Shown piece after piece: positions 20,267 to 62,713 of a DNA stretch of 64,000 nucleotides. Source of the stretch: Verrucomicrobia bacterium IMCC26134. Its GTDB lineage: Bacteria > Verrucomicrobiota > Verrucomicrobiia > Opitutales > Opitutaceae. A model generated the notes under the pieces. It was not told the DNA's origin, made no database searches, and saw only the letters and a list, made by a program, of their open reading frames with translations. Where the stretch lies: positions 2,093,501-2,157,500 of the forward strand of contig CP011265.1 of the NCBI GenBank assembly GCA_000972765.1, written 5' to 3'. A program made the position numbers and the translations under genes. Every line of letters starts with the position of its first letter. The first letter of the stretch is position 1.

Positions 20267-21187
20267 ATGCCACGGCTTTCAATCATCGTTTGCACCCATA
20301 ATCCAAATCTGACGAATTTGGATCGCACACTCGCCGCTCTGCAGGCGCAAGACCTGGCCGTTGAACAGTGGGAGTTGATCGTCATCGACAACGCCTCGGC
20401 CCTCCCACTCGCCCCGCGCATCGACTTGCAGTGGCATCGTCAGGCCCGGGTCTGCCGCGAGGAAACGTTGGGGCTTATTCACGCTCGGCTCCACGGCATG
20501 AGAGTCGCCAGCGGCGAACTCATCGTTTTCGTCGACGACGATAACTTGCTCGCCTCCGACTACCTTTCCAAAACGGTCGCAATCGCGGATACGCGGCCTT
20601 GGCTGGGCGCTTGGGGAGCCACCATCCGCGGCGAATTCGCCTCCAAGCCGCCAGATTGGATTCAGCCTTATCTTTATGGACTGGCCGTCCGCGAAATCAT
20701 GCGCGAACGCTGGCAAAATCTGCCCGCGCCATCCTCCGCTGTGCCTGCCGGCGCTGGGATGACCCTGCGTCGCAGCGTCTGTCATCGATACCTGGACGTC
20801 TGCAACACTGACCCCCGCCGTTTAAAACTTGGCCGCAGCGGACAAGCCCTGAGTTCGGGCGAGGATGTCGATATCGCGTTGACCGCAACGGATCTTGGCC
20901 TGGGCTTCGGCATTTTTCCCGAGCTCCGACTGACCCACCTCATACCGGCCAACCGTCTTGAAATTGGCTATGTCTCACGGCTCATGGAAAGCATCGAGCA
21001 AAGCCATCATCTCCTCCTCTATCTGCGCGACGCCAGTTACCGTCCACCGGGCCACTTCGGAGAAGACCTGCTCATCCGCTGGCGTATGCGTCACATGTCT
21101 CCCGAACGGCGATTGATCGAACGATCCATCGCACGAGGCCGGCGCAATGCCCTCCGCGCCATCAAGGAGCTCGCTCGCACCCCATGA
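20267..21187 (+). CDS. glycosyltransferase family 2 (GT-A)
   Basis: 306 residues. The GT-A nucleotide-binding start RLSIIVCTHNPNLTNLDRTL and the metal-binding acidic motif VFVDDDN (about 88-94) are present. The acceptor-side region has SGEDVDIALTATDLGLGFG with the catalytic ED pair at about 202. It transfers a sugar from a nucleotide sugar to the growing chain on the cytoplasmic face; donor and linkage cannot be read from sequence. It starts 14 bp after the Wzt-like gene, and its stop overlaps the next start by ATGA. Confidence 0.92.
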   Translation: MPRLSIIVCTHNPNLTNLDRTLAALQAQDLAVEQWELIVIDNASALPLAPRIDLQWHRQARVCREETLGLIHARLHGMRVASGELIVFVDDDNLLASDYLSKTVAIADTRPWLGAWGATIRGEFASKPPDWIQPYLYGLAVREIMRERWQNLPAPSSAVPAGAGMTLRRSVCHRYLDVCNTDPRRLKLGRSGQALSSGEDVDIALTATDLGLGFGIFPELRLTHLIPANRLEIGYVSRLMESIEQSHHLLLYLRDASYRPPGHFGEDLLIRWRMRHMSPERRLIERSIARGRRNALRAIKELARTP

Positions 21188-22341: not shown

Positions 22342-23659
22342 GCCAGCGCTCGCTCACATAATTCCCCGCACAGGAGTCGATTTTCCAGCCGTTGATCCCT
22401 CTTCGATTTTGAAGATTTCCTACGTTAACAACCACTACCAGCTCGGCGGCGCGGAGACCGTCGTGCGGCAGCTGCACGAGGGCGCGCTGGCCGCCGGACA
22501 CGACTCGCGTCTGCACGTCACCGAAGGCAAGACGTGGCCCCTCGCGCCGGGACTGCGTCCGTTGTATCCTCGCTTGCTCGCGCGACTGGAACACTCCCGA
22601 GCGCACGATCTCGTGCAACGCCTGACCCCTCGTTGGACGTGGACAGATCGCGCGTTCCGTCAGCTTGCAAGCGGCGATGCCGACCTCGTCCACGTGCATA
22701 GTTTCCACGGACTCTACGCGTCCCTTGAAAGCTTCGCGGTCGTGGCCCGCGCCAAACCGCTGCTGTGGACCTTCCACCGCTTCTGGGGAATCACCGGCGG
22801 GTGCGACCATCCCTTTGGCTGCGAGCGCTACCAGACCGGTTGCGGTGACTGTCCACAAGTGGGCCGCTTCGCCGTCGGTCCCGTGGATCGCACTGCCTCC
22901 GAGTGGAACCAAAAACGCACCCACCTCGCGCCATTGCCCTTGCACATCATTTCACCATCCCGACATCTCGCCCAGCGAGTGAAGTCGAGCGTGTTAGGTC
23001 GAGATTGGACGGTCCACATCATCCCCAACGGCGTCGATCCGGCATCCTTCACGGGCGCGCGAAAACGCTCACCTGCCCTGCGCCAAGAACTCGGTCTGCA
23101 CCCTGAGAAACGCGTCGTCCTCGTCGCGTGCCGTGATTTCAAGGATCCCATCAAGGGCTTCCCGACCATCGAGCGCGCCCTGGCCTCGTGTGTCTGGCCT
23201 GGTTTGCAAGTGGTGCTCGCAGGCGAAAACGCCGCCTGGGCCCGTGCCCGCCTGCCGAGCGAACTCGCGGTCGTGAACCACGGCTATGTGCGCGAGCGAG
23301 ATCGCATGGCTACCCTCTGCGAGGCCGCTGATTTTTTCCTCTTCGCCTCGGACGGCGAAAACTTCCCTTGCATCGTCATCGAGGCAATGGCCGCCGAATG
23401 CGTGGTGGTAAGCTCTCCGGTGGATGGTGTTATGGAGCAAGTCGAGGACGGCGTCACCGGTCTTATCGCGCCCGACGCCTCGGCAGAATCACTCGGCAGA
23501 TTGCTGGCCAGCGCACTCAGCTTATCCCAAGAGCGGCAACAGGCCCTGGGCGCCGCCGCCCGCCGGCGTGTTGAAACGGAGTTTAGCGAAGACCGGATGA
23601 TCGAGGCCCATCTCAAACTCTACGCCCGACTCATTCGCGAACAACAGCTAGGCCGATGA
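22307..23659 (+). CDS. glycosyltransferase family 4-like (GT-B), WcaC-like architecture
   Basis: 450 residues if started at the ATG at 22307, which overlaps the upstream gene by 35 bases. Homologous sequence begins only at ILKISYVNNHYQLGGAETVVRQL, so a TTG start at 22409 is a reasonable alternative. The region FHRFWGITGGCDHPFGCERYQTGCGDCPQ holds a Cys cluster found in a subgroup of GT4 enzymes of EPS clusters. The donor site has VVLVACRDFKDPIKGF and the E-X7-E in ASDGENFPCIVIEAMA (about 348-363). It ends with an ATGA overlap into the next gene. Likely adds one sugar of the repeat unit. Confidence 0.9.
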   Translation: MPKPCGRSVLHKPALAHIIPRTGVDFPAVDPSSILKISYVNNHYQLGGAETVVRQLHEGALAAGHDSRLHVTEGKTWPLAPGLRPLYPRLLARLEHSRAHDLVQRLTPRWTWTDRAFRQLASGDADLVHVHSFHGLYASLESFAVVARAKPLLWTFHRFWGITGGCDHPFGCERYQTGCGDCPQVGRFAVGPVDRTASEWNQKRTHLAPLPLHIISPSRHLAQRVKSSVLGRDWTVHIIPNGVDPASFTGARKRSPALRQELGLHPEKRVVLVACRDFKDPIKGFPTIERALASCVWPGLQVVLAGENAAWARARLPSELAVVNHGYVRERDRMATLCEAADFFLFASDGENFPCIVIEAMAAECVVVSSPVDGVMEQVEDGVTGLIAPDASAESLGRLLASALSLSQERQQALGAAARRRVETEFSEDRMIEAHLKLYARLIREQQLGR

Positions 23660-24519
23660 CCCCGACGTCCTCCTCAACACCGCACATCGTCGGTTTCGTG
23701 CCGGCCTACAATGCCGCCGCCACCGTGGCGAACGCGGTGCACAGTCTGCGTGCGCAATCACCGACCGCCCTTGAGGTGCTGGTGATCGATGACGCCTCCA
23801 CCGACGGCACCGCAGAAGCCGCCATCTCAGCCGGTGCCCGTGTCGAACGCCTGAAAACCAACTCGGGACGCGGTGCGGTGCGGGCCCTGAGCATGGAGCG
23901 ACTGCACGCCGACTTCATCGTCAGTTTGGACGCGGGCAACCGTGTGGGGCCTGACTTCGTCGCCCGCGCCCTGCCCTGCTTCGCCGACCCCAAAGTGGCG
24001 GCAGTCGTCGGCGCCTGGCACGATCCCGGCGCGACCGCCTGCGCCTCACCCAATCTCGCCCGCCGCTGGCGCGCACGGCACCTGTTTAAAATTGAGCGGC
24101 AGCCCATGGCTGGCGAAGCGCGCAACCTCGCCACGCATGGCTGTATTTTAAGGCGCGCGGCCGTGCTCGATGCCGGCAACTTCGACCCCCGACTCCGCCA
24201 CACCGAGGATGCCATGCTCGGCTGGATACTCCAGCAACGCGGTTGGCGCATCGTCACTTGCAGCCAGGCGAACGTTGAACCGCAGACCGAAGACAGCTTA
24301 GTCGCCCTGGCCGAACGTTATTGGCGTTGGCACACCGGCACCCGTGAAAGATGGTCGCCCGGCCGTTATATCGACATGATAAAAAACTCCCTCCGGATCA
24401 TGGCTCCGCTAGATCTGAACGCACGTGATTTTCCCGCGCTGCTCTTCACGCTTTTAATCCCGCACTGGATCACCGTGCTCACGCTCGCACGCAACCTCGC
24501 TGGAAAGGTCCAAAAATGA
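23656..24519 (+). CDS. glycosyltransferase family 2
   Basis: 287 residues. The GT-A core begins HIVGFVPAYNAAATVANAV, followed by LVIDDASTDGTAEAA (about 40-55) and the metal motif variant SLDAGNRVGPDF (about 94). The RHTEDAMLGWILQQRGWRI region gives the catalytic ED. C-terminal residues about 240-285 include a hydrophobic stretch (LLFTLLIPHWITVLTLA) that may associate with the membrane. It is coupled by ATGA overlaps to both neighbours. Confidence 0.9.
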   Translation: MTPTSSSTPHIVGFVPAYNAAATVANAVHSLRAQSPTALEVLVIDDASTDGTAEAAISAGARVERLKTNSGRGAVRALSMERLHADFIVSLDAGNRVGPDFVARALPCFADPKVAAVVGAWHDPGATACASPNLARRWRARHLFKIERQPMAGEARNLATHGCILRRAAVLDAGNFDPRLRHTEDAMLGWILQQRGWRIVTCSQANVEPQTEDSLVALAERYWRWHTGTRERWSPGRYIDMIKNSLRIMAPLDLNARDFPALLFTLLIPHWITVLTLARNLAGKVQK

Positions 24520-25367
24520 AACTTTCTATTATCGTTCCTACCCATGAGCGGCCTGATGCCCTGCGCGCCTGCCTGGAGAGTATCTACGTGGCGATGGATT
24601 CTTCTCCGGGGTTCGATTACGAGATCATCGTCAGTGATGACGGCACGCGGACCCGCGCACAATCAATGCTCGGCGCCGATTTCCCCTTGGTGAAATGGAT
24701 AGCAGGCCCCCGCCGAGGCCCGGCCGCCAACCGCAACGCCGGGGCGGCGAGGGCAAGCGGAGAGGTGATAATCTTCCTGGACGACGACTGTCTGCCCACC
24801 CCCGGTCTGCTCTCGGCCTACGCGAACGCGTTCACCAACCCAGCGCTGCTCGCCGCCGAAGGGCGTATCCGCGCCGATCGCCCGCACATGCGCATGGACG
24901 AGGAAGCCCCAGTCAACGAACACGGCGATTGCTTCTGGAGCTGCAACATCGCACTTCGTCGCGAATTTTTCCTCACGATAGGCGGTTTCGACGAGCGCTT
25001 CCCGTCCGCCGCTATGGAAGACGTGGAACTGCGTGAACGAATCAAACGATTCGGCACCACCATTCTCTTTGTGCCAGAAGCACTCGTCATCCACCCCCTT
25101 CGTCGCACGGGCGGTTGGAAGGCCCTGCGCACGCGCGCACACGGACACGGGGTCTATGCGCTCATACCAGGCTGCCACCTCCCTCCACCCAGTTACCTGA
25201 GCGCGATCTGGGCAACGCTTCGCGTCCTGCGTCGGCGTTTCCTGCCCCGCTTCATCGAGCTGCGCGGACGTGGCGCGCTACGTGCCAGCCTGAGCATCCT
25301 GCTCCCGCTTTTGTCCACTTATGAGATGAAAAAAGCTCTGCGCGCCTCCAAGTCACAAAAACCATGA
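24516..25367 (+). CDS. glycosyltransferase family 2
   Basis: 283 residues, a clear GT-A fold: KLSIIVPTHERPDALRACLE, IIVSDDGTRTRAQ (about 34-46), IFLDDDCLPTPGLL (DXD at about 88-92) and AAMEDVELRERIKRFG (catalytic acid region near 168). It belongs to the large GT2 group acting on lipid-linked oligosaccharides in the cytoplasm. Both ends overlap the adjacent genes by ATGA, so translation is probably coupled. The sugar transferred cannot be assigned. Confidence 0.92.
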   Translation: MKLSIIVPTHERPDALRACLESIYVAMDSSPGFDYEIIVSDDGTRTRAQSMLGADFPLVKWIAGPRRGPAANRNAGAARASGEVIIFLDDDCLPTPGLLSAYANAFTNPALLAAEGRIRADRPHMRMDEEAPVNEHGDCFWSCNIALRREFFLTIGGFDERFPSAAMEDVELRERIKRFGTTILFVPEALVIHPLRRTGGWKALRTRAHGHGVYALIPGCHLPPPSYLSAIWATLRVLRRRFLPRFIELRGRGALRASLSILLPLLSTYEMKKALRASKSQKP

Positions 25368-26440
25368 ACCCACCGGCGCGCATCACATTGATCGCAGCCC
25401 GTTTGGACTCCGGAGGTGTGGCCGACCACGTAAACTCGCTCGCTCTCGCACTGAGAGCACGCGGTGCGACGGTAGCGGCTTTCGCCCGCGAAGATTACTC
25501 CGTTAAACCGCTTCGAGACGGTCACGAACCAGGAACCGGTCACTGGATCGGCCTGCATTTCGTGGCCTACGGTTGGGCAAAACACGGCATCCTCAGGCGA
25601 TCCGACATCGAGCAAATCCGAGAAGCCTGCGCCGGTCATCGCATCGTGATATATTTACACGAGCTCTGGATCGGCGCGGAGCTGGGCTCATCGGTCAAAC
25701 ATCGCTTGATTGGCGCCCTTCAACGGCGCGGCCTGCTTCGTTTACTTTCCGTTCTCCAACCCGCGCGGGTGCTCACCAGCAACCCGGTTTATCAGGCCAT
25801 GCTGGCCCGCGAGGGCATAGCCGCCACCCAACTCTCCTTGCCGGGAAACCTGCCCGTGCCCTCAGGGTCGGATCGCCGCGCTGCCCGCGAATGGCTGGCG
25901 ACCGCCGGGCTGGCCGAGGCACGTGCGCCCGCACTTGCAGCTGTCTTTGGTCTGATCCATCCGGAATGGGACGCCCGAGTCGCTATCGCCGACTGGCATG
26001 CACACGCCGAGCGCAATAAAAGATCGCCCGCTGTCCTCGCTCTGGGTCGGCACGGCGCCGCCGGATCGCGCAAACTGGCCGCGCTACGGGAACACATTCC
26101 GAACCTGCGTGTGATCTGCGCCGGCGAACAACCGGCGCCCCTGCTTGCCGGCCTTCTCGCCGAATGTTCGCTCGGGCTCGCCACCTCGCCCTGGTCTTTG
26201 ATCGGGAAGAGCGGCACCGCCGCCGCGTTCCTGGAGGCCGGCCTTCCCGTGATCGTGACTCGCGACGACTGGCACTGGCGCCCCGGCCCCACCCCGGCTC
26301 CGGTCCCGCACCCTCGGCTTTGGAAATGGACTGCCTCCTCGCCCTTCGCGTGGGACCAGTTTCTGGCAACTCGCGACCGCCCTGCTCCGGGACTCGCACA
26401 AGTCACGGACACCTGGCTTCAACTCATCTCCGAACAGTGA
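25364..26440 (+). CDS. divergent GT-B-like glycosyltransferase, not assigned to a family
   Basis: 358 residues. It starts RITLIAARLDSGGVADHVNSLALAL, like the N-terminal Rossmann half of GT-B enzymes, and has a second half with LRVICAGEQPAPLLAGLLAECSLG and SGTAAAFLEAGLPVIV, where the final Glu matches the second Glu of the GT4 E-X7-E motif while the first is replaced (IGKSGTAAAFLE). The usual GRL..KG stretch is absent. From position it is a glycosyltransferase of this cluster, but with a weakened donor motif it may use an unusual donor or be a non-catalytic relative. It overlaps the preceding gene by ATGA. Confidence 0.75.
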   Translation: MNPPARITLIAARLDSGGVADHVNSLALALRARGATVAAFAREDYSVKPLRDGHEPGTGHWIGLHFVAYGWAKHGILRRSDIEQIREACAGHRIVIYLHELWIGAELGSSVKHRLIGALQRRGLLRLLSVLQPARVLTSNPVYQAMLAREGIAATQLSLPGNLPVPSGSDRRAAREWLATAGLAEARAPALAAVFGLIHPEWDARVAIADWHAHAERNKRSPAVLALGRHGAAGSRKLAALREHIPNLRVICAGEQPAPLLAGLLAECSLGLATSPWSLIGKSGTAAAFLEAGLPVIVTRDDWHWRPGPTPAPVPHPRLWKWTASSPFAWDQFLATRDRPAPGLAQVTDTWLQLISEQ

Positions 26441-26448
26441 TCCGGCCT

Positions 26449-27474
26449 ATGCGAATCCTGCTCATGACCCACCTGTTCTCCCCTAGCATCGGTGGCATAG
26501 AAACGATGTCACTCTTGCTGGCGCGCGCTTTCGCCGACGCCGGGCACGACGTGCGCATCGTCACCACGACGCCGTCGGGCGATGCCGGGCACGACCACAG
26601 CCTGACAGTCCTGCGTCGTCCCGGTCCCCTTGCCTTGTTGCACGCCGTCTCTTGGTGCGACGTGTGTTTTCACAACAACATCTCACTGCTTTTCGCCTGG
26701 CCGGCTCTGCTGCTAGGCAAACCTTGGGTGGTCACCAGCCAAACTTGGATCGCCAGAGTCGACGGGGCGCTCGGCTGGCGGGAGCACCTGAAGCGCTTGC
26801 TGCTTCGTCATGCCTGGCCCGTCGCCATCAGCCGGGCGATCGCGGACGCCCTGCCCGTGCCCTCGTTGATCATCCCCAACAGCTACGACTCCGCTGTTTT
26901 TCACCACGTCGCGCCCGCTGGGATTCCACGCTCGAAAGACCTGATTTTTGTCGGGCGTCTGGTCTCGGACAAAGGTGCCGCACTCGCTCTTTTGGCTCTC
27001 ACCTACCTGCGTGAAATCGGGTTGAGTCCAACACTCACCATCGTCGGGGATGGACCCGAGCGTGAACGCCTGGTGTCAATGGTCGCCGAAAATAAACTCG
27101 ACGCCCAGGTTGTTTTTCTCGGCCCACGGCAAGGCGCAGCGCTGGCCCGGGAGTTTCATCGTCACCGCATTCAGCTCGTGCCCTCGCGCTGGGCCGAGCC
27201 CTTTGGGATCGTCGCGCTAGAAGGCGCGGCGTGCGGTTGCCTGGTCATCGGCTCGGCCGACGGAGGCTTGTCCGATGCCATCGGGCCTTGCGGCCACACC
27301 TTCCCGAACGGCGATGCGCGTAAACTCGCCAATCTACTGGAGATCGCGCTGCGGAACGCTCTGCCGCCGGCCAACACCCTCGCACAAAGCCGGCACCTTC
27401 ATCGACACGACCCGTCCACGGTCACGGCCGCGTATCTGGATTTATTTAAAGGTCTCGTGCGGGATCACCCATGA
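26449..27474 (+). CDS. glycosyltransferase family 4
   Basis: 341 residues from the ATG at 26449, 8 bp after the previous stop; longer upstream frames are overlap with the preceding gene. Start MRILLMTHLFSPSIGGIETMSLLLARAF is the classic GT4 N-terminus. Donor site motifs: LIFVGRLVSDKGAALAL (about 165), IVGDGPERERL (about 200) and PSRWAEPFGIVALEGAA with E-X7-E (about 245-260). It is relatively short, ending soon after the donor domain. It overlaps the next gene by ATGA. Confidence 0.93.
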   Translation: MRILLMTHLFSPSIGGIETMSLLLARAFADAGHDVRIVTTTPSGDAGHDHSLTVLRRPGPLALLHAVSWCDVCFHNNISLLFAWPALLLGKPWVVTSQTWIARVDGALGWREHLKRLLLRHAWPVAISRAIADALPVPSLIIPNSYDSAVFHHVAPAGIPRSKDLIFVGRLVSDKGAALALLALTYLREIGLSPTLTIVGDGPERERLVSMVAENKLDAQVVFLGPRQGAALAREFHRHRIQLVPSRWAEPFGIVALEGAACGCLVIGSADGGLSDAIGPCGHTFPNGDARKLANLLEIALRNALPPANTLAQSRHLHRHDPSTVTAAYLDLFKGLVRDHP

Positions 27475-28367
27475 ATCATTTCCTGTCCATGACCAGCTCT
27501 CCTCGCATTTCCGTGATCATCGCCGTTTTTAACGGTGCCAAGCACCTCTCCGCGCAGATGGACGCCCTACTCGCCCAGCGCTGCGACTTCCCTTGGGAGG
27601 CGATCTACGTGGACAACGGATCCACCGACACCAGTCGTGAGCTGATCTCCGCGCGCATCTCGGAGGACAACCTGTCACATGTGCATCTCATCGACGGTTC
27701 GCAGGAGCGTGGCCAGGTTTACGCCCGTAATCATGGCGGTCGATTGGCCCGCACCAGCTTGCTCGCCTACACCGACCAGGACGACCTGCCCGCCCCTGAT
27801 TGGGTGACGGAGATGGTCAAGGCCCTGCAAAACTCCGATGCCATCGCAGGGGGTATAATCTACACGCCGCATGGATATGCCCTCGTCAATAATCAGGACA
27901 CCGGTCAGGAACCACCTAGATCCTTAAAATGCTGGAACGGGTTTGATTATGCGCTCGGCACAAATTTCGGCGTCCATCGACACGTGCTGGAAGCCCTTGG
28001 GGGATGGCAGGAACTGGGCGTTCATGCCGGCGAAGACGTCGATCTATGCATACGCCTGAAGCTTGCCGGCTATAAAATCAGCTACGCGCCAATGGTTCGC
28101 GTCACATGGAGATCCCGGATCGAGATCGGTGACATCTTCAGACAAGGGGTGACCTACGGTCGGAGCGACGTTCTGCTCTACCTTAAATTCCGCAAGCACG
28201 GGGTGCAGCGTCGCAGTCTGCGGTCCATGTTGCGCGTCATTAAGCAGACCCTACAGCCTTTGGGCGGGCTCTTCCAAACGCCACGTTCCTATTGGGGCGT
28301 TATCAAGCTCGGCGTTCTGACAGGACGCCTTCTGCAATGCCTCCGTTCACGAACCCTTTATATTTAA
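27471..28367 (+). CDS. glycosyltransferase family 2
   Basis: 298 residues. GT-A motifs: RISVIIAVFNGAKHLSAQMDALL, IYVDNGSTDTSREL (about 44-57), LAYTDQDDLPAPDWV (DXD-like at about 102-105) and HAGEDVDLCIRLKLAGY (about 184-200). The start overlaps the previous stop by ATGA; an internal ATG six codons later is an alternative. The Gln in the DQDD metal motif is common in GT2 rhamnosyl-type enzymes, but assignment to a sugar would be a guess. Confidence 0.92.
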   Translation: MNHFLSMTSSPRISVIIAVFNGAKHLSAQMDALLAQRCDFPWEAIYVDNGSTDTSRELISARISEDNLSHVHLIDGSQERGQVYARNHGGRLARTSLLAYTDQDDLPAPDWVTEMVKALQNSDAIAGGIIYTPHGYALVNNQDTGQEPPRSLKCWNGFDYALGTNFGVHRHVLEALGGWQELGVHAGEDVDLCIRLKLAGYKISYAPMVRVTWRSRIEIGDIFRQGVTYGRSDVLLYLKFRKHGVQRRSLRSMLRVIKQTLQPLGGLFQTPRSYWGVIKLGVLTGRLLQCLRSRTLYI

Positions 28368-28431: not shown

Positions 28432-29697
28432 ATGCAGCCTGCTAAACCCCCTTTGCTAAGGTTCCTGCTCCGCTGGCTCGACAGCAACGAGCTCGCCTGG
28501 ATGCCGCCTCGCTGGTGGCACGGCACACCTACGGAGCGTGAGGTCTGGCACCTGCGCAAACTGGCCCGCCGGCGGATCCGAAGGGAGCTCATCGCCCGAC
28601 AAGGTCTGGCGCGCACCCTCACCCAGGCTGCCGTCTGGCCGGTTTGGGCTTTGCTCAAAACGGTGATACACTTACGCCAACGACCGCTCCGAAAACCCGG
28701 GCTTGGTGCGTGGGCTCTGCGTTTCCTCGATATTTACTGGCTTCAAATGGCCTACAATATCGGGATCAGCGACCAGTTCGACGGCCGGATGGAACTACCC
28801 GAATTCCGCAGACTCATTCGCCTTACTGCCGTATGCCGCGAGCATCAGTCGCTGCTTTCGAGCACCCATCTGATTGCGCGAGGCTATCCCAATATCGGCG
28901 GCAAGCAGGTCTTTGCTAAATTTTGTTTGGAACATGGCCTCCCGACCGTGCCCGTGCTTTGCGCGGGTCGTGGTGACCAACTCCTCCCTGGCGCAGTCGA
29001 TTGGCCGCCCCGGGATGTTTTCTTCAAGCCAGCGAACATGGCCAAAGGACTCGGCATGGAGGTATTTTCCTACGACGCGACCACCGGACAGTGGCGCACC
29101 GAAGCAGGTATCATCGTGACACCGCAATCGCTGCCCGCCTACGCCAGACGAAAACTCGGCCAGGACGTGGAATGGCTTCTTCAGCCGCGCATCTCCAACT
29201 CCTCCGCTTGGCCGGCCTATGGCTCGGGCGCGCTCTCGACCTGCCGGATTATGACCGGAAGATTGGGCCCGAACGAAACTGACATCGTGATACTCGGAGC
29301 GTTTATACGCTGTTCGCTGGTCAATCCCATCGTGGATAACATGTCAGCTGGAGGCATCGGCATCGGCATCGATCTAACGCAGGAGCGACTCACGTTCGGG
29401 CTGGAGTGGGTTAACTACGATCCGCCGCTGAGTCACATCCCCTCTACCGGCGCAGCGATCACCGGCACAACGGTCCCTGCCTTATCTGAAATAGTGAACC
29501 TTGCCCTGCGGGCACACCGTGCGGCAGGTAACTGGAGCTCGGTCGGCTGGGACCTCGCGCTCCTCGAAGAGGGTCCGGTTTTAATCGAAGCGAACCTCCA
29601 ATGGGCCATCAATCCCTTCCTCCCCTTCGGCATGAGCCGGTTGCCCGAGGTTTTGCGAACTTGCTTTGGCCCTCACTACGAACGCCTCCCCTCGTGA
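28432..29697 (+). CDS. sugar-transfer-associated ATP-grasp protein, copy 1
   Basis: 421 residues from the ATG at 28432; a TTG at 28396 would add 12 residues. The ATP-grasp core is visible: DVFFKPANMAKGLGMEVF (ATP-binding Lys), WLLQPRISNSSAWPAYGSGALSTCRI, VDNMSAGGIGIGIDL and SVGWDLALLEEGPVLIEANLQW (metal-binding Glu and Asn). The N-terminal 130 residues are basic and Trp-rich and lack a known catalytic motif. The family is named for its position in polysaccharide clusters; ATP-grasp enzymes activate a carboxylate as acyl phosphate and join it to an amine or thiol, so decoration of the glycan with an amino-acid-like group is possible. Its actual reaction has not been established to my knowledge. 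The next gene is a paralogue whose start overlaps this stop by one base (TGATG). Confidence 0.88.
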   Translation: MQPAKPPLLRFLLRWLDSNELAWMPPRWWHGTPTEREVWHLRKLARRRIRRELIARQGLARTLTQAAVWPVWALLKTVIHLRQRPLRKPGLGAWALRFLDIYWLQMAYNIGISDQFDGRMELPEFRRLIRLTAVCREHQSLLSSTHLIARGYPNIGGKQVFAKFCLEHGLPTVPVLCAGRGDQLLPGAVDWPPRDVFFKPANMAKGLGMEVFSYDATTGQWRTEAGIIVTPQSLPAYARRKLGQDVEWLLQPRISNSSAWPAYGSGALSTCRIMTGRLGPNETDIVILGAFIRCSLVNPIVDNMSAGGIGIGIDLTQERLTFGLEWVNYDPPLSHIPSTGAAITGTTVPALSEIVNLALRAHRAAGNWSSVGWDLALLEEGPVLIEANLQWAINPFLPFGMSRLPEVLRTCFGPHYERLPS

Positions 29698-30971
29698 TGC
29701 CACCCGTGCCCCCCTGCAACGATTCCTCCTCGAACCCGCCGCGAGGCCTTCTCAAGGCGTTCAAAGCCCTCATAGACGCCCAGGAATTCCCTTGGCTGCC
29801 CCCTTGGCGGAGGGGGCAGGATAAACGCGAACGCGACGTATTGCACATACGCCGAATTGCCCTGCGCCTCATCCGGCAAAGCACGAATCTATCGCGGGCA
29901 AAACTCACCCTGCGATCGCTCGCCTGGCCGCTTTTATTGCCACTCAAGGCATTGCAGCCAGCCCTGGCCTGCACCCAGCAGGGCTTGCCGCGACGCTTTC
30001 TGCGCGGCGCCGCCGATCTCGCTTTGCATAATATACGCGCCGATGCACTGGGGGCCCTGCGCGATACAAGACCGGGTAACCGCCACCTCGCCCGTCTCTA
30101 CGTGCCGGATAGGGAAAACCAGGCCCTGCTCATCCATCTCAACCGGGATCAAGCGGAGAGCGCTATCGGCGACAAGCTGGCCTTCGTCGCCTTTTGCAGA
30201 AAGCACCACCTTCCCCACATTCCCGTGCTCGCCCACGGTCAAGGGGCCACCCTGCTCGCTTCTCCCGAGGAATGGCCCGCGACCGATCTCTTCGTCAAGC
30301 CGACCAACCTCTGGGGCGGCCAAGGCGCGGCCGTGCTTGAGCATGTGGCCGCAGGCGGGTGGCGCGATGCCGGCGGCCGGTTGCTCCACCCGCACGAGTT
30401 CGCCGCCTGGGCCGGGCGGCATTACGGCGATGCCCCTTGGCTGATTCAGCCGATGCTGCGGGTGGATCCAACCTGGAGTGATTGGAGCCCGGGACCGCTC
30501 GGCACCGTGCGCGTCGTCACCGTCATTGTGCGCCCCGGCGAGTCGCCCGAACTGATCGCCGCGTCCATGCGGCTTCCTCGCGCGAACATGGTCGTGGATA
30601 ATTTTTCCGCCGGAGCGCTCTCCGCCGAGATCGATTGGCGTGTTGGCAGACTCGGGCCGGCGCTCGGACACGGCTCGTTTCGCCGTTGGCATGATCGACA
30701 CCCCGACACTGGAGCCGCCATCACCGGCGCCCGTATTCCTCGCTGGGAGGAGGTGTGCTCGCTGGCTTGCGCCGCCCACGCCGCCGCGCCGGGCCTCGTC
30801 GCCGTAGGCTGGGATATCACCTGTCGTGCAGGAAGCCCGATAGTAATCGAGGCCAACCCGGTTTTCAATCTGGCGCCCACCGTCATTCTTGGCGAAACCC
30901 GCTGGCTCGATGCGATTCAGAATCGTCTCGCTTCCCTTGATCCGAAATACGACGCACGCCTTCAATCATGA
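29697..30971 (+). CDS. sugar-transfer-associated ATP-grasp protein, copy 2
   Basis: 424 residues from the ATG at 29697, which shares one base with the preceding stop; longer frames to 29601 are overlap. The order of motifs equals that of copy 1: basic N-terminal region with PWLPPWRRGQDKRERDVLHIRR (compare MPPRWWHGTPTEREVWHLRK in copy 1), DLFVKPTNLWGGQGAAVL, WLIQPMLRVDPTWSDWSPGPLGTVRV, VVDNFSAGALSAEIDW and VGWDITCRAGSPIVIEANPVF. Catalytic Lys, Glu and Asn are retained in both copies, yet the paralogues are clearly diverged, which suggests different substrates rather than a recent duplication. The GT8 gene follows with ATGA overlap, making a modification-transfer unit likely (inference). Confidence 0.88.
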   Translation: MPPVPPCNDSSSNPPRGLLKAFKALIDAQEFPWLPPWRRGQDKRERDVLHIRRIALRLIRQSTNLSRAKLTLRSLAWPLLLPLKALQPALACTQQGLPRRFLRGAADLALHNIRADALGALRDTRPGNRHLARLYVPDRENQALLIHLNRDQAESAIGDKLAFVAFCRKHHLPHIPVLAHGQGATLLASPEEWPATDLFVKPTNLWGGQGAAVLEHVAAGGWRDAGGRLLHPHEFAAWAGRHYGDAPWLIQPMLRVDPTWSDWSPGPLGTVRVVTVIVRPGESPELIAASMRLPRANMVVDNFSAGALSAEIDWRVGRLGPALGHGSFRRWHDRHPDTGAAITGARIPRWEEVCSLACAAHAAAPGLVAVGWDITCRAGSPIVIEANPVFNLAPTVILGETRWLDAIQNRLASLDPKYDARLQS

Positions 30972-31891
30972 CCCCATCCCTCACCCTCGCCTTTGCATCC
31001 GACGAGAACTACCTCGATGGTCTCGTCGGCACGCTCTCCGGCGTGGTCCGATCCGCCCCGGGCGCGACCATCCGGGCCTACGTGCTCGACTGCGGCATCC
31101 AGGACGCCGGGTGGCGAGAGCTGGAGCAAACCCTGCGCGCCCGATTCAGCCGCCTCGAGCTTGTTCGGCAGGTGATCAAACCGAGTCAACTCAGTGCATT
31201 TAACCCGCAGAATCAGAATAATCGCCTCAACAACTCCTCCTACGCGCGTCTTCTCCTGCCCGAGTTACTGCCGGATACGGAGCGTATACTCTACCTCGAC
31301 TGCGATTTGCTGGTGGATGCCGACCTGCGCCCCTTGTTCAGCACTCAGCTCGAGGGTGCGCTAATCGGTGCCGTGGCCGAAGGTCATCTTCCGTTGCTCG
31401 TCCAAAACGTGTTACCCGAACTCATCCCCCCTGCAGAAAAAGACAGTCTCGCCTTCAACTCAGGGGTCATGCTCATGGATTTAGCGGCCATGCGGCGCGC
31501 CGGTTTAATCGCCGCGCTCAAGAGCAATCCCCCTGCGTTGAGCTTAAAGATGCAGGATCAAGCGTCGCTCAACCTTGCCTTGATGTCTCGTTGGAAAAAA
31601 CTCCCCACCCGCTGGAACCACCAGCGTTTCGTCACCGAGCATTTTTCCATTTATCGGGATTATCCAGACACGGTCTGGCACTTCATCGGCAAGATGAAGC
31701 CATGGCATTTCGACCCGGACCACGCCCGCGGACTCATGGCTGAATTTCAACGCGACATCATCACCACCGGATGGACACCGCGACAAAAGGGGACTTGGCG
31801 CACGCTCAGCCCGGCCTGGCGCGATTTCCTAAAAGCGTCGCACGCCTTTGCCCGACGCCACGGATTCTACGGTCGCAGTCGGTCCGCCTGA
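30968..31891 (+). CDS. glycosyltransferase family 8
   Basis: 307 residues with clear GT8 motifs: LTLAFASDENYLDGLVGTLSG at the start, ILYLDCDLLVDADLRPL with the DXD metal site (about 108-114), LAFNSGVMLMDLAAMR (about 160) and the C-terminal WHFIGKMKPWH His/Lys-Gly pattern (about 238-248). GT8 enzymes are retaining and commonly transfer glucose or galactose to LPS core or similar acceptors. It is the only GT8 among about fifteen transferases here and sits between the ATP-grasp pair and an acyltransferase. Confidence 0.94.
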   Translation: MTPSLTLAFASDENYLDGLVGTLSGVVRSAPGATIRAYVLDCGIQDAGWRELEQTLRARFSRLELVRQVIKPSQLSAFNPQNQNNRLNNSSYARLLLPELLPDTERILYLDCDLLVDADLRPLFSTQLEGALIGAVAEGHLPLLVQNVLPELIPPAEKDSLAFNSGVMLMDLAAMRRAGLIAALKSNPPALSLKMQDQASLNLALMSRWKKLPTRWNHQRFVTEHFSIYRDYPDTVWHFIGKMKPWHFDPDHARGLMAEFQRDIITTGWTPRQKGTWRTLSPAWRDFLKASHAFARRHGFYGRSRSA

Positions 31892-32606: not shown

Positions 32607-33851
32607 ATGATCCTACAAGCCCACCCCACCGGAAACGCATTCGTCCGCGCACTCGCCTCAGGGCTGGCGGACGCAAGGATGCTGGCGGAGTTCCATACCT
32701 GCCTCGACTGCCCGGCCGACGAGCGGTGGCTGCGTATACTGCCCGGGCGCTTACGGAGCGAGGCCCGCCGCCGACGCCTGCCCGCCGCAGTCAAACCCTA
32801 CGCCCATCTGCACCCGTGGCGCGAGCTCGGGCGCCTCGGCGCGGCCCGGCTCGGCGCAACCCGTCTGCTTAGCCACGAAAAAGGCTGCTTCTCAGTAGAC
32901 CAGGTTTACCAAGCGCTGGACCGCAAGGTCGGCGCACGTCTGCCCGCCCTGCCCAATCTAAAGGGGGTATATCTGTATGAGGACGGCGCGGCCGCCGGCT
33001 TCGCCGCCGCTCAAAAAATAGGCCTGCAGACCTTCTATGATTTGCCGATCGGATATTGGCGCATGGCGGCCCGTATCCTGGGCGAGGAGGCAGCACTCTC
33101 CCCAGAGTGGGCCGGCACCCTGTCCGGCCTGCTCGACAGCCCGGCGAAACTGGCCCGCAAGGACGAGGAACTGGCCCGGGCCGGAACCGTCTTTGTCGCC
33201 TCCAGTTTCACTCGCGCCTCTTTGGTCGAAGCGGCGCAGGTCCCGGGCGATGTGGTAATGATTCCTTACGGTGCGCCGTCGCCACCGGCCGGCGCTTCTT
33301 TCGCGCGACGCAAACCCGGGGAGCCGTTGCGTGTGCTCTTCGTCGGATCACTCGGACAGCGCAAAGGCACGCGCTACCTGCTCGACGCGATGGCAGCACT
33401 GGGCGCGGGCTTCGAACTTACGCTCATCGGCACGGTCCCGGACGCCCGCTGCGATCCGCTGGCTGTCGCGCTGCGAAAGCACCGGCACATCCCAAGCCTG
33501 CCCCACTCCGCGATCCTCGATGAGATGACACGCCACCATGCCTTTGTCTTCCCCTCGCTTTTCGAAGGCTTCGGTCTGGTGCTGCTGGAGGCGATGGCGT
33601 GCGGCTTGCCGGTCATCGCCACACCGCATACCGCCGCGCCCGACATCGTGCGCGAAGGGAGGGATGGCTTCGTGGTCCCTATTCGCAGTTCCGCCGCGAT
33701 CGCCGACCGCCTGACCTGGCTCGCCACCGACGAGGACCGCCGACAGGCCATGGGGGCACACGCACGCACCCGCGCGGCGCAGTTCACCTGGACCGATTAT
33801 GCAAAGCGTATGACAGATACCCTGGGATCGCGTCTCGCCCGCCGCACGTAA
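32607..33851 (+). CDS. glycosyltransferase family 4
   Basis: 414 residues from the ATG at 32607; the open frame continues far upstream through the acyltransferase gene but without homologous sequence. The donor domain has LRVLFVGSLGQRKGTRYLLDAM (about 240), LTLIGTVPDARCDPL and PSLFEGFGLVLLEAMACGLPVI with E-X7-E (about 314-328). The N-terminal half includes SHEKGCFSVDQVYQALDRKV and TFYDLPIGYWRMAARIL, the pattern of GT4 enzymes in which the acceptor domain is mostly helical. Spacing to the acyltransferase gene is 32 bp. Confidence 0.9.
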   Translation: MILQAHPTGNAFVRALASGLADARMLAEFHTCLDCPADERWLRILPGRLRSEARRRRLPAAVKPYAHLHPWRELGRLGAARLGATRLLSHEKGCFSVDQVYQALDRKVGARLPALPNLKGVYLYEDGAAAGFAAAQKIGLQTFYDLPIGYWRMAARILGEEAALSPEWAGTLSGLLDSPAKLARKDEELARAGTVFVASSFTRASLVEAAQVPGDVVMIPYGAPSPPAGASFARRKPGEPLRVLFVGSLGQRKGTRYLLDAMAALGAGFELTLIGTVPDARCDPLAVALRKHRHIPSLPHSAILDEMTRHHAFVFPSLFEGFGLVLLEAMACGLPVIATPHTAAPDIVREGRDGFVVPIRSSAAIADRLTWLATDEDRRQAMGAHARTRAAQFTWTDYAKRMTDTLGSRLARRT

Positions 33852-33867
33852 ACCACCCTCCCCTCGC

Positions 33868-35196
33868 ATGGACCAAGCCATCAAACGACTCCTCTGGCTC
33901 TATTTTCTCCTTCTCGTAGGCGAGGGCGTGCTTCGGAAATGGATCGCCCCGGGGCTGTCCGAGCCGCTCCTCATCATCCGCGATCCGGTGGTTTTTGCGA
34001 TTTACGGACTCGCGTTTATGCGCGGCGAATTTCCGGCGCGGCTATCCATGCTGGTGCTGGCTTTTCTGGCGGTCGCCTCGTTCGTTTTCGCCGTCGTTGC
34101 GGGTTCGCCTTTGCTGGTCGCGCTCTACGGACTGCGCATCAACTACCTTCATGTGCCGCTCATTTTCATCATGGGGACCACGCTCACGCGAGAGGATGTG
34201 CTGCGCTATGGCCGCGTCGTGCTCTGGCTTACCCCTCCGATCGCGGCCTTGATGGTTTTGCAATATCAGGCCGGATCAGGCTCGAGGCTCAACGTCGGTG
34301 CGGGCGGGGAACTCGACGGTCAGCTGCGCGGTGCGTTGGACAAGATGCGGCCGTCCGGGCCCTTCTCGTTTATCACCGGCCCGATTCTGTGGTTTTCTCT
34401 CGCGAGCGCCTTTATTTTTCATGGCTGGACCAGTAACGGCACTCACCCGCGCTGGCTCCTGGGTATCGCGACGCTCATGCTTGTGGTCGCGGTGCCGGTT
34501 TCGATCAGCCGCAGCTTGCTGTTCTCCGTTCTAGTGGTCGTGCTTTTCGGATTAACCGCCATATTACGCGCGCCGAAACAAGCCTTTGCGGTGCTGGTTC
34601 CAGCCGGTCTCGTGCTGGGCACTCTGATGATGTTGAACGGCAGCGAGCTGAGCTCGGCCTTTGGCGCACGTTGGCAAAGTTCGATTGGCACAGGTGTGGA
34701 GGAATCCATCTTTAAGCGTTTTCTCGGAGACTTTGAATCCGGCCTTTCCCTGGTTTCCTCCGCTCCTCTTTTCGGTCACGGGGTGGGTATGGGCTCAAAT
34801 GTGGGCACACGCTACGTTTCCGGCAGCATGGGCTTCGCCCTCGCCGAATCGGAATGGGCCAAGATCATCCTCGAGCTCGGCCCGTTGCTCGGCCTCGCTT
34901 TCATCGCCTACCGCGGCTGGCTCGCCTTCACTCTGCTCTCCAGCGCAGCCCGACATTTGCTGCAAAATACGGATGGCCTGCCTTGGTTGCTCGCTGCTGC
35001 GTGCCTGCTGCCCGTGATCTCCGGCCAATGGGCGCCGCCAACTATCCTGGGCTTCGCGGTGTTTGGCGGAGGCCTCGTGCTCGCCGCGCTCAACACCCCC
35101 GGGGACACGGACAACGTTCCCGAGGACGACGCCCATCCCGCTGACGAAATCGTGACCGAAAAACCCATCCCGCGTAACCATGTCCGTCGCGTCTGA
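33868..35196 (+). CDS. polytopic O-antigen polymerase-like protein (Wzy-like)
   Basis: 442 residues with about ten membrane helices, the first at MDQAIKRLLWLYFLLLVGEGVLRKWIAP. A hydrophilic loop holds PLFGHGVGMGSNVGTRYVSGSMG and ESEWAKIILELGPLLGLAFIAY (about 305-350), which corresponds to the loop-plus-Glu region of Wzy/ligase proteins. The sequence is weakly conserved, as is normal for polymerases. It is the second polymerase/ligase-like protein of the locus besides the 496-residue one at 15796-17286. Its 3' end overlaps the next glycosyltransferase start by 17 bases. A hydrophilic acidic tail (about residues 410-442) is probably cytoplasmic. Confidence 0.8.
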   Translation: MDQAIKRLLWLYFLLLVGEGVLRKWIAPGLSEPLLIIRDPVVFAIYGLAFMRGEFPARLSMLVLAFLAVASFVFAVVAGSPLLVALYGLRINYLHVPLIFIMGTTLTREDVLRYGRVVLWLTPPIAALMVLQYQAGSGSRLNVGAGGELDGQLRGALDKMRPSGPFSFITGPILWFSLASAFIFHGWTSNGTHPRWLLGIATLMLVVAVPVSISRSLLFSVLVVVLFGLTAILRAPKQAFAVLVPAGLVLGTLMMLNGSELSSAFGARWQSSIGTGVEESIFKRFLGDFESGLSLVSSAPLFGHGVGMGSNVGTRYVSGSMGFALAESEWAKIILELGPLLGLAFIAYRGWLAFTLLSSAARHLLQNTDGLPWLLAAACLLPVISGQWAPPTILGFAVFGGGLVLAALNTPGDTDNVPEDDAHPADEIVTEKPIPRNHVRRV

Positions 35197-36376
35197 TCTA
35201 TTCGCCGTCCCTCGCCCGTTGCGGATCTTGCTCGTCGGCAACTTCGCGCCCGACGAGCAGGAGAGCATGTTGCGCTTCGAGCAAATGATGGCGGTCGGGC
35301 TCCGCGCACGAGGCCACGTGGTGGAAACTATTTCCCCGGTGCCGATTCTCGCCCGTCTAGCCCGTCCCTACCGTTATGCGGGATGGCCCAAGCTATTAGG
35401 CTATGCAGATAAGTTCCTCATTTTCCCTCTCGCCTTGCGTCGCCACGTCCGTGGCTTCGCGCCCGACGTCGTGCACATCGTAGATCACGCCAATGCGGGC
35501 TACGCCCGAAACACAGCGACGAAGCCTTGTCTCGTCACCTGCCATGATCTGCTGCAAATTCGCGTCGCTCGAGGAGAGTTTCCCGTCCCCCGCCCCAGCC
35601 TGAGCGGACGCTGGTTTCAGGCGCGGATACGCCACCACCTTTCCCGCCTTGCCCATGTGGCGTGCGTATCGGAGCAAACCCGGGTCGACCTCCGCCGAAT
35701 CGCCGGGCTCAAGACTGAACAGATCGACGTCGTGCACAACGGACTCAACCAGCCCTTCCGCCGCGTGCCCGTGGCCGAGGCTCGCTCGGTGCTCGCGCCC
35801 TTGCTTGCGAGAACAGGGCTCTCCGCTGGCGTGCTTGGCTGCTTCCTGTTCAATATCGGCGGGACCCAATGGTATAAAAACCGGTCCGGTCTGCTATCGA
35901 TTTACGCCGAGCTGCGCCGCCTGCTGCCCTCACCGCCCGCGCTTTTGCTGGCAGGCAAGGCCCTTTCACCCGAGCTGCTCGCACAATGCGAAGCGCTGGG
36001 CATTCAAAGCCACGTAATACCACTCGGCACTGTCACCGCCGCCGAGCTGGAGTCGCTCTACTCGCTGGCGGAAGGCCTGCTTTTCCCCTCTTGGGCCGAG
36101 GGCTTCGGCTGGCCCATCGCGGAAGCACAAACGTGCGGTTGCCCAGTTTTTACTTCGAATCGCGCGCCGTTGACCGAGGTAGGCGGAGATGCCGCCGTGT
36201 ATTTCGATCCAGCCGATCCGCTAGACGCGGCCAGACAGATCTCCGCGCACTGGACACGGCGCACCGAGCTTAGGTCTGCGGGTTTGCAGCGGGCGGAATT
36301 GTGGTCGCCGCAGCGCATGCTGGCAGCCTACGAAAATCTCTATCGGCGTATGCTCGCCATTCCTCGCGCACAATGA
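35180..36376 (+). CDS. glycosyltransferase family 4 (mannosyltransferase-like)
   Basis: 398 residues. N-terminal acceptor half: LRILLVGNFAPDEQESMLRFEQM and the DVVHIVDHANAGYARN region typical of WbaZ/MtfB-like mannosyltransferases. The donor half has GCFLFNIGGTQWYKNRSGLL and PSWAEGFGWPIAEAQTCGCPV with the Glu pair of E-X7-E (about 305-313). The start overlaps the membrane-protein gene by 17 bases and the stop overlaps the next gene by ATGA. Mannose is a suggestion from resemblance only. Confidence 0.92.
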   Translation: MSVASDLFAVPRPLRILLVGNFAPDEQESMLRFEQMMAVGLRARGHVVETISPVPILARLARPYRYAGWPKLLGYADKFLIFPLALRRHVRGFAPDVVHIVDHANAGYARNTATKPCLVTCHDLLQIRVARGEFPVPRPSLSGRWFQARIRHHLSRLAHVACVSEQTRVDLRRIAGLKTEQIDVVHNGLNQPFRRVPVAEARSVLAPLLARTGLSAGVLGCFLFNIGGTQWYKNRSGLLSIYAELRRLLPSPPALLLAGKALSPELLAQCEALGIQSHVIPLGTVTAAELESLYSLAEGLLFPSWAEGFGWPIAEAQTCGCPVFTSNRAPLTEVGGDAAVYFDPADPLDAARQISAHWTRRTELRSAGLQRAELWSPQRMLAAYENLYRRMLAIPRAQ

Positions 36377-37494
36377 AGCCCCTGCGAATCACCATTCTTC
36401 AGGGAGCGTTTTTCCCCGTTCCTGCGGTGCGCGGCGGAGCGGTGGAGAAGCTCTGGTGCGGACTCGCCGTGACTTTCGCCCGGGCCGGGCACAGCGTCAC
36501 CCAGGTCTCGCGGGCGGTGCCCGAGTTGCCCGCCACGGACGTGCTTAACGGCGTGCGGCACGTGCGGGTGGCAGGCTACGACCAACCGGCGGGCATGCTG
36601 CGGCTGAAGTGGCGCGACCTGCTCTACACGCGAAGGGCGCTCGCAGCGGCGCCGGCGTCGGACATTCTGGTGACAAACACGTTTTGGGCCCCGCTGATGG
36701 CGCGCCGCGCACAGGGGGCGATCTACGTCAGCGTGGAGCGCAGACCGAAAGGCCAGATGCGCCTCTACGGCCGGGCGGCGCGCCTGCGCGCCTGCTCGCA
36801 GGCGGTGGCTGACGCGATCATCGCGGAGTCGCCGGGCCTGGCCGCGCGGGTGCGCGTGATCCCGAATCCACTTCCGTTCGCGACCCATGAGCCGGTGCAG
36901 CCGCGAAACGAATCGGGCCGGTTTTTATTCGTCGGTCGCATCCACCCGGCAAAGGGCGTGGAGTTGCTGTTGCAGGCCTTTGCGCAAGCGAAGGACGCGG
37001 GCGAGCTGCCGGACGGCGCAAGCTTGGAACTCGTGGGCCCAGCCGAGGAGGGCCGGGGCGGCGGGGGCGAGACGTGGTGGCGCGGAGTGCTGACGCGTCA
37101 CGCCAGGCCGGACGTCACATGGGCGGGCCCGATCTATGATGCGGAGACGCTCAACGCACGTTACCGCGCAGCCACGGTCTTCGTTTATCCCTCACTCGAC
37201 GCCGCAGGCGAGGCGATGCCCATCGCTCCACTCGAGGCCATGGCCTGGGGCTGCATCCCGGTGGTATCCGATCTGGCCTGTTTTCGCGATTACCTGTGCC
37301 CCGGCCGCAACGGCTTCGTTTTCGACCCTCAAGCGGCAGACCGGGTGGAGCGACTGGCCGCGATCCTCGCGAAGGCGGCCGGGGCCGATGCGCAGGCACT
37401 GCGCCCAGAGGTGACCCAAGTGCGCCAGAGCCATGCCTTGGAGACGATAGGAGCCCGCTTCATCGAAGATTTTTATTCGCTTCTCAGGGGATAA
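36373..37494 (+). CDS. glycosyltransferase family 4
   Basis: 373 residues from the ATG at 36373 (ATGA overlap). N-terminal motif LRITILQGAFFPVPAVRGGAVEKLWCGLA has the Gly-Gly acceptor loop; VIPNPLPF leads into the donor domain with FLFVGRIHPAKGVELLLQAF (about 183-205), LELVGPAEEGRGGGGETWW and YPSLDAAGEAMPIAPLEAMA (E-X7-E variant at about 275-295). The inserted GRGGGGETWW loop before the Glu pair occurs in GT4 enzymes of several EPS loci. The nearest upstream frame extension to 36301 is not homologous. Confidence 0.92.
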   Translation: MKPLRITILQGAFFPVPAVRGGAVEKLWCGLAVTFARAGHSVTQVSRAVPELPATDVLNGVRHVRVAGYDQPAGMLRLKWRDLLYTRRALAAAPASDILVTNTFWAPLMARRAQGAIYVSVERRPKGQMRLYGRAARLRACSQAVADAIIAESPGLAARVRVIPNPLPFATHEPVQPRNESGRFLFVGRIHPAKGVELLLQAFAQAKDAGELPDGASLELVGPAEEGRGGGGETWWRGVLTRHARPDVTWAGPIYDAETLNARYRAATVFVYPSLDAAGEAMPIAPLEAMAWGCIPVVSDLACFRDYLCPGRNGFVFDPQAADRVERLAAILAKAAGADAQALRPEVTQVRQSHALETIGARFIEDFYSLLRG

Positions 37495-37519
37495 ATCCGC
37501 CAAACCCCTATCGACACCC

Positions 37520-38380
37520 GTGATTAAAGTTCCTGTTTCAATCCTCATCCCGATCAAGAACGAAGCAGGTAATCTGCCTCGATGCCTTGCCGCGGTGGCG
37601 TGGGCCGATGAAATCATCGTGGTCGATTCGCACAGCACCGACGACTCCGCCGGCATCGCGCAAGCCGCGGGCGCCACCCTCGTGCAGTTCGATTTCAACG
37701 GCACCTGGCCGAAGAAAAAAAACTGGTCGCTGGAAACCGTCCCCTTCCGCCACGAATGGGTGTTCATTCTGGATGCGGACGAAGTGCTTCCACCGGGAGC
37801 TGAAACAGAACTGCGCTCGATTGTAGAAAACCCCGGGCATCCCGTGGACGGATACTGGATAAACCGTCGCTTCATGTTCATGGGGAAATGGCTGCGGCAC
37901 GCTTATTATCCCAATTGGAACCTGCGCCTGTTTCGCCATAAACGAGGACGCTACGAAAAAATTACCGACGCGCCCACCGCGAGCGGAGACAACGAGGTGC
38001 ATGAACATGTGATCGTGCGGGGCACGACTGGCCGTTTAAGAACCGAGATGGATCATTACGCCTTTCCCTCGGTCGAGGTGTTTGTCGAAAAACACAACCG
38101 CTACTCAAACTGGGAGGCACGCGTCGAGGTCGATGGCTTGCTATCCAACAAGTCCCTTCAAAATCGTGACGTAGGCTGGCGTCGCCGCCTGAAGTCGTGG
38201 ACACAAAAACTCCCGTTCCGGCCTTGGTTGCGTTTTTCATATGTTTATTTCTGGCAACGCGGTTTTCTGGATGGGCGCGAGGGATACTACTTCGCACGCC
38301 TACACGGCATGTATGAACTCATGACGGTGGCTAAAACTTACGAACTGCGAAAGCAGCCATCACCATCAAGGCCCCGATGA
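37520..38380 (+). CDS. glycosyltransferase family 2 (WaaE/KdtX-like)
   Basis: 286 residues from a GTG start at 37520. GT-A motifs are VSILIPIKNEAGNLPRCLA, EIIVVDSHSTDDSAGIA (about 32-48) and WVFILDADEVLPPGAE (about 80-96). The middle part WLRHAYYPNWNLRLFRHKRGRYEKI, with EVHEHVIVRG following, is typical for the GT2 group that includes LPS core beta-glucosyltransferase WaaE. The C-terminal part (FVEKHNRYSNWEA, FYVYFWQRGFLDGREGYYFA-like) is amphipathic and may touch the membrane. ATGA overlap with the following gene. Confidence 0.93.
   Translation: MIKVPVSILIPIKNEAGNLPRCLAAVAWADEIIVVDSHSTDDSAGIAQAAGATLVQFDFNGTWPKKKNWSLETVPFRHEWVFILDADEVLPPGAETELRSIVENPGHPVDGYWINRRFMFMGKWLRHAYYPNWNLRLFRHKRGRYEKITDAPTASGDNEVHEHVIVRGTTGRLRTEMDHYAFPSVEVFVEKHNRYSNWEARVEVDGLLSNKSLQNRDVGWRRRLKSWTQKLPFRPWLRFSYVYFWQRGFLDGREGYYFARLHGMYELMTVAKTYELRKQPSPSRPR

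Positions 38381-61024: not shown

Positions 61025-62713
<1,689 letters not shown>

Follow-up and report, generated by a model that had tools for sequence, protein, structure and literature searches.

Tandem, diverged PF14397 ATP-grasp genes in a surface-polysaccharide cluster of Verrucomicrobia bacterium IMCC26134: candidate ligases within a low-divergence gene block

Among ATP-grasp proteins of surface-polysaccharide loci, one described system is the C-terminal, TupA-like domain of Cj1438 from the Campylobacter capsule. This domain (Cj1438C) is reported to couple serinol phosphate or ethanolamine phosphate, as an amide, to the C6 carboxylate of glucuronic acid (PMC11800379); the glycan carboxylate is activated, the amine is added, and the protein carries an N-terminal GT2 domain. 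Here we describe two adjacent genes, A and B, which encode ATP-grasp proteins of the family PF14397 (ATPgrasp_ST) in a stretch of 64,000 nucleotides from Verrucomicrobia bacterium IMCC26134 (contig CP011265.1, positions 2,093,501 to 2,157,500 of the forward strand). This whole stretch is referred to as the window, and coordinates are counted from its first base. We propose, with a probability of roughly 0.55, that A and B are two diverged carboxylate-amine ligases that decorate the exported surface glycan of their cluster, either successively or at two positions. The proposal draws on the family match, intact residues, overlapping frames, low divergence from a congener, purifying selection and the recurrent pairing of such genes.

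An 'ATP-grasp amino acyl ligase' has been tabulated in a Clostridium surface-polysaccharide operon (PMC4000134), and ligation of amino acids to cell-surface polymers has been predicted (PMC2824669). The idea of ATP-grasp amino-acid ligases in surface-polysaccharide operons is accordingly already published. PA1766, a predicted ATP-grasp gene, appears among the suppressor hits of a Pseudomonas exopolysaccharide study (PMC7314104). An ATP-grasp gene of Pseudomonas syringae mutated under phage pressure was set aside; it is reported to sit in an operon of metabolism and ABC-transporter genes (PMC11167607). For PF14397 the literature searched by family name, Pfam name or Pfam number yielded no paper, and none of the matches listed gave a reaction, with subscription papers thinly covered. 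PA1766 itself we take to be a PF14397 member.

Both proteins score well above the curated PF14397 cut-off (Table 1; for gene B the scanned frame was taken from 29634), and at an E-value of 0.1 no other Pfam family matched either of them, the TupA family PF14305 included. Like other members they occur in a polysaccharide context and show the motifs KP, R, GWD and ExN; the window differs from the family at large by its two diverged tandem copies and by the low divergence that these share with a GT8 and an acyltransferase gene. The best NCBIfam model for both is TIGR02291 (rimK_rel_E_lig), the alpha-L-glutamate ligase-like proteins of the same wider PF14397 family, with scores (31.3 bits for A, 35.6 bits for B) far below the cut-off of 314.2. 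The stop codon of gene A (TGA, 29695–29697) and the start codon of gene B (ATG, 29697–29699) overlap in TGATG, and the stop of gene B overlaps the GT8 start at 30968 in ATGA. The earlier note on this DNA had described exactly this arrangement, a tandem pair coupled to a GT8 gene and followed by an acyltransferase, and its coordinates are right; the acyltransferase starts just outside the end of the segment it covered. A and B align nearly end to end with 33% identity (138 of 421 alignment columns). At this level of identity they are old paralogues and not the product of a recent duplication. They are the sole copies found: the rest of the 4.0-Mb genome gave no further PF14397 match at E 0.001. 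Viral contigs searched with A and B contained no related stretch.

The conserved residues are K158, K199, R272, D374, E386 and N388 in A and K160, K201, R272, D373, E385 and N387 in B (K160 was taken from the A/B alignment). In an alignment of 54 family rows, the lysine of the KP motif, the arginine and the aspartate of GWD are each present in 53 rows, whereas 52 rows have the glutamate and 51 the asparagine. All five, which comprise the ATP-grasp lysine and the metal-site Asp, Glu and Asn, are retained in both proteins, so the earlier report of an intact Lys, Glu and Asn holds and the loss of residues in an alignment that it had named as a refutation was seen in neither. One relative in this alignment (G027, locus L027, 8814–10013; here and below genomes and loci carry our own handles) has lost all five, with the KP-lysine replaced by R, Arg by K, Asp by E, Glu by G and Asn by S, and looks like a catalytically dead copy.

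We compared the window with the congener G001. The DNA identity amounts to 91% for A, 94% for B, 92% for the GT8 gene and 94% for the acyltransferase, and the synonymous divergence (dS) to 0.27, 0.18, 0.25 and 0.16, respectively. The surrounding cluster genes are much more diverged, with dS values of 1.64 (25364) and 1.34 (26449) upstream and from 1.22 to 1.87 downstream (32607, 33868, 35180, 36373 and 38377; 37520 is saturated). The value of 1.62 for 20267 probably comes from a non-orthologous comparison, at a protein identity of 28%. Eight of nine window genes tested outside the cluster flanks have a dS of 0.94 to 2.0; the ninth, 61025–62713, has 0.30 and may likewise have been exchanged or be under unusual constraint. 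For rpoB the dS is 0.53. Since nearly all other genes measured nearby are more diverged than these four, we infer that A, B, GT8 and acyltransferase were probably exchanged recently as one block. Gene A has a ratio of nonsynonymous to synonymous divergence (dN/dS) of 0.18 and gene B one of 0.17 (413 codons), which places both copies under purifying selection.

The junction of A and B is contiguous in G001, where two contigs share an exact overlap of 149 bases and TGATG is retained. At the upstream edge, near-identity to G001 is also seen over the segment 27360–27660, which covers the end of one gene and the beginning of the GT2 gene. Within this GT2 gene (27471) the first ~190 bases are nearly identical, the next ~450 bases are absent from G001 and the following piece is ~70% alike; because of this succession the upstream edge of the block is, as far as the alignment tells, mosaic. 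A gene B with 94% identity to that of the window was also seen in a metagenome-assembled genome labelled Akkermansia muciniphila (L019, CAMDHP010000079.1), although the species label may be wrong.

PF14397 was searched in overlapping samples of relatives, class and phylum. It matched in 13 of 57 relatives (11 above the cut-off) and in 64 of 384 genomes of the class (38 above the cut-off). An A/B-like profile matched at least 56 of 387 genomes of the phylum at 1e-10, with the best four candidates per genome scored and copies possibly missed. Twelve plasmid records matched B, and four of these were examined. Gene starts at the fetched loci came from a simple caller; because it missed some genes and merged others (L022, L024, L025, L063, L105), the PF14397 rows were taken from stop-to-stop frames. 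The tree was built from the 54 rows mentioned above, 46 of them from 29 records outside a TIGR02291-like clade and eight from inside it. It leaves out rows below 110 bits, the contig-edge fragment L115, repeat loci of the same gene and all but these eight TIGR02291-like rows. This separate clade (support 100/100 for the eight rows), which we took, by its high scores, as the putative TIGR02291 type, accounts for most of the highest PF14397 scores.

Of the 29 records, 11 contain PF14397 genes in tandem on the same strand: this genome, G001, G033, G078, G132, G202, G435 (with interrupted frames), G470, G549, G655 and an Ensifer plasmid. The frames overlap by 1 to 28 bases in seven records and lie ~53 to 66 bases apart in G132, G470 and G655 (called genes; G435 left out). 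Tandem partners mostly group together or within their own clade. The pairs of the window and G001 form a clade (100/98) with the single-copy relative G024 inside, the G078 pair one (91/87) with G028 inside, and the partners of G549 (97/84), G435 (100/100) and G470 (96/87) group likewise; a clade of the genus g67 (99/98) includes three single-copy members. In Ensifer and G033 the first genes group together, as do the second genes (100/99 each), and the partners of G655 are not sisters. Together these groupings suggest at least six separate pairings of PF14397 genes, a count that results from a simple reading of the tree, with several long branches and with gene B of the window flagged for unusual composition. 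Approximately unbiased (AU) tests rejected the reading of the window and G078 pairs as one-to-one orthologues in all five groupings tried (p = 0.003, 0.0065, 2e-5, 4e-5 and 0.001), though the groupings were picked after the tree had been seen and gene conversion within pairs could mimic the result.

The GT8 gene was also considered as a general partner and dropped, as beyond G001 only one weak GT8 match (G368) was found among 28 loci searched. The acyltransferase is the more recurrent neighbor, with homologues near PF14397 genes in G078 (45% identity), G028 (46%) and, weakly, G429 (30%). Two loci, L064 (G132) and L065 (G202), have three PF14397 genes each; in L064 a gene of the pyruvyl-transferase family lies between the second and the third and a GT25 gene follows the third, and L065 has the same layout as judged by gene lengths.

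TupA and the PF14397 proteins have in common the ATP-grasp fold class, as assigned by family, and the surface-polysaccharide loci; in Ensifer, G033, G655 and G573 a TupA gene adjoins PF14397 genes or is close to them. The gene order is TupA-PF14397-PF14397 in Ensifer, where the pair adjoins a gene of a flippase family, and PF14397-PF14397-Wzm-Wzt-TupA in G033. Ensifer is an alphaproteobacterium and G033 a member of the same family as the window genome; their TupA proteins are 52% identical and their PF14397 partners 44 and 50%. TupA (PF14305) was found in 5 of 24 genomes with a PF14397 gene not of the TIGR02291-like type, in three of them at the same locus (G033, G655, G573), and above the cut-off in 16 of 368 genomes of the class sample. 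As these two samples are unmatched, the co-occurrence is a lead and not a test. The window differs in this respect: a search that matched in five other genomes found no PF14305 in this one, and neither A nor B resembles Cj1438C in being fused to an N-terminal GT2 domain. Other companions were seen in G470, where ~11 kb hold three PF14397 genes, two ATP-grasp_4 genes and an amino acid permease, and in Shinella, where an acyl carrier protein, an AMP-binding protein and a pyridoxal phosphate (PLP)-dependent enzyme adjoin the PF14397 gene. Three TupA genes lie in tandem in G259 (C33, 14948–18043), so the tandem arrangement of ATP-grasp genes is also seen in a second family.

The surroundings of the block are listed in Table 1. 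Twelve cluster genes have clear glycosyltransferase matches, the WecG-type gene included, and one further match is weak (25364). Together with Wzm and Wzt they bear out the polysaccharide-export context described before. The other strand encodes a Wzc-like kinase, a Poly_export protein, a porin, a sugar-phosphate transferase and a Wzy_C protein. For the acyltransferase, the Hexapep scan used a longer frame from 31771, and many NCBIfam acetyltransferase models match, all below their own cut-offs. Outside the window, the genome encodes a single nucleotide-sugar dehydrogenase, which is most similar to UDP-glucose dehydrogenases, and DegT-type sugar aminotransferases at several places, three of which were scanned further. 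Enzymes for both a uronic acid and an amino sugar are thus present, which does not decide the acceptor. Elsewhere in the window, a stretch of ~150 bases at 45195–45373 matches 19 contigs of G001 and is probably a dispersed repeat.

Table 1. Genes of the block and its polysaccharide cluster, in window coordinates
Feature	Position	Strand	Details
Gene A, PF14397 ATP-grasp protein	28432–29697	+	ATG start, 421 amino acids; Pfam 98.1 bits, cut-off 31.4, E 6.7e-28
Gene B, PF14397 ATP-grasp protein	29697–30971	+	ATG start, 424 amino acids; Pfam 115.2 bits, E 4.1e-33
GT8 glycosyltransferase	30968–31891	+	PF01501, E 2.7e-36; ATGA overlap with B; dS 0.25 vs G001
Hexapeptide-repeat acyltransferase, 221 amino acids	31909–32574	+	Hexapep 25.4 bits, just below cut-off 27; dS 0.16 vs G001
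GT2 glycosyltransferase directly upstream of A	27471–28367	+	Glycos_transf_2; dS 0.46 over 144 remaining codons vs G001
Wzm-type ABC permease	18060–18914	+	58 bits to the galactan export permease model NF050109, below its cut-off of 380
Wzt-type ABC ATPase with Wzt_C domain	18979–20253	+	ABC_tran 86.4 bits; Wzt_C 34.8 bits, cut-off 30.4
Upstream cluster genes, GT2/GT4 types	20267–27474	+	25364–26440 weakly GT4-like; 21184 and 22409 outside scan
Downstream cluster genes	32607–41005	+	GT4s, GT2, 33868–35196, 39663, 40196
Polymerase/ligase-like gene	33868–35196	+	No Pfam match
Second hexapeptide acyltransferase-like gene	39663	+	
WecG-type gene	40196	+	

The earlier note had further suggested that the Wzt C-terminal domain could read the decoration and that its types might track with tandem copies. 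The comparison gave no support for this: across the three tandem loci with Wzm and Wzt, a small sample, the C-terminal parts are 21–27% identical, compared with 57–67% for the ATPase parts. In the stretches examined, the other tandem loci had no Wzm or Wzt homologue of this type at E 1e-6, apart from Ensifer, where Wzt matched weakly (28% over 271 amino acids).

From these comparisons we infer a ligase chemistry with the glycan as substrate and propose the following course of the decoration. Each ligase would use ATP to convert a carboxylate into an acyl phosphate, which would be passed to an amine to give an amide on the glycan. A and B would act in succession, or at two positions, on one surface glycan of this cluster. 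The carboxylate could be contributed by the glycan, through a uronic acid as in Campylobacter, or by an amino acid that is joined to an amino sugar. The same decorated branch would involve two further enzymes, the GT8 protein and the acyltransferase, and export would proceed via Wzm/Wzt of the cluster or via the neighboring Wza/Wzc-type machinery. We favor two amide-forming steps because fold class and context resemble those of Cj1438C. The attachment of an amino acid or another carboxylate to a glycan, as first suggested for this pair, stands in part: decoration through an acyl-phosphate ligase is still the best reading, whereas the direction is reversed in the Campylobacter enzyme as reported, where the glycan supplies the carboxylate (PMC11800379). 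In view of the same glucuronic acid amidation, calling such a decoration undescribed was, in general terms, too strong.

Several observations weigh against the proposed glycan ligases. Among the scanned cluster genes (21184 and 22409 lay outside the scan) none supplies a nucleotide sugar or an amino acid. A profile comparison of PF14397 with two TupA sequences, a weak test at this number, detected no relationship (probability 0.2%, E 0.37), so the Campylobacter precedent applies by fold class and context only. AlphaFold2 models of A and B, from four-row alignments, reach a predicted local distance difference test (pLDDT) score of 38 and 42, too low for use, and a PDB sequence search returned no convincing solved relative, the best matches being unrelated and a D-alanine-D-alanine ligase appearing at E 0.82. 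PF14397 is not bound to glycans, since a PF14397-like gene of Lachnospiraceae (L020, 9491–10504) has no adjoining polysaccharide genes as far as its neighbors were judged by eye. Finally, the low dS of the block might partly reflect constraint instead of exchange, given that the unrelated gene 61025 has a similarly low value.

Other explanations have to be considered along with the proposed pair of glycan ligases. A and B could make a small soluble amide, such as a dipeptide or an amino-acid amide. A separate transferase would then attach it to the glycan, and the ligases would never touch the sugar. The joining of small molecules is common among ATP-grasp enzymes, and genes that handle amino acids do occur at some PF14397 loci (the ATP-grasp_4 genes and the permease of G470; the acyl carrier, AMP-binding and PLP-dependent proteins of Shinella). 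The block itself, however, offers as obvious transferases only two glycosyltransferases and the hexapeptide acyltransferase. Glycosyltransferases usually take nucleotide sugars and hexapeptide acyltransferases usually acyl-CoA, and we regard this route as unlikely. Somewhat less likely still is a division in which one copy is the enzyme and the other a redundant or structural duplicate without a separate function. Tandem gene duplication is common in surface-sugar loci, and the G027 protein has lost every catalytic residue that was checked; A and B, however, both keep these residues at only 33% mutual identity, and each has a dN/dS of 0.17–0.18.

The ATP-grasp fold also includes kinases, and the conserved ATP and metal residues cannot separate a ligase from a kinase. 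A and B might accordingly phosphorylate a hydroxyl group of a sugar or of the glycan without forming any amide. This we consider the least probable of the three alternatives, since the nearest NCBIfam model, TIGR02291, describes RimK-related ligase-like proteins, even if it is matched far below its cut-off and is itself of unproven function. Moreover, the reaction reported for the capsule ATP-grasp domain of Campylobacter is amide formation (PMC11800379).

Going beyond the window, the glycan loci of distant microbes may carry two to five ATP-grasp ligases in series (PF14397, TupA, ATP-grasp_4), each adding one residue to a peptide-like or oligo-amide side chain, and the block described here would then be a mobile two-step version. 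We put this extension forward as speculation and consider it rather improbable as it stands.

New in the present work are the shared low-divergence block, the recurrent tandem pairing and the TupA companions in Ensifer and G033. Amide decorations of surface glycans alter charge, recognition and phage access, and for many of them we know of no enzyme. A compact block with two candidate ligases, which is far less diverged between congeners than its surroundings and whose family forms tandem pairs repeatedly in separate lineages, provides a defined target for assigning the PF14397 reaction. It also offers the testable idea that such ligases may work in series.

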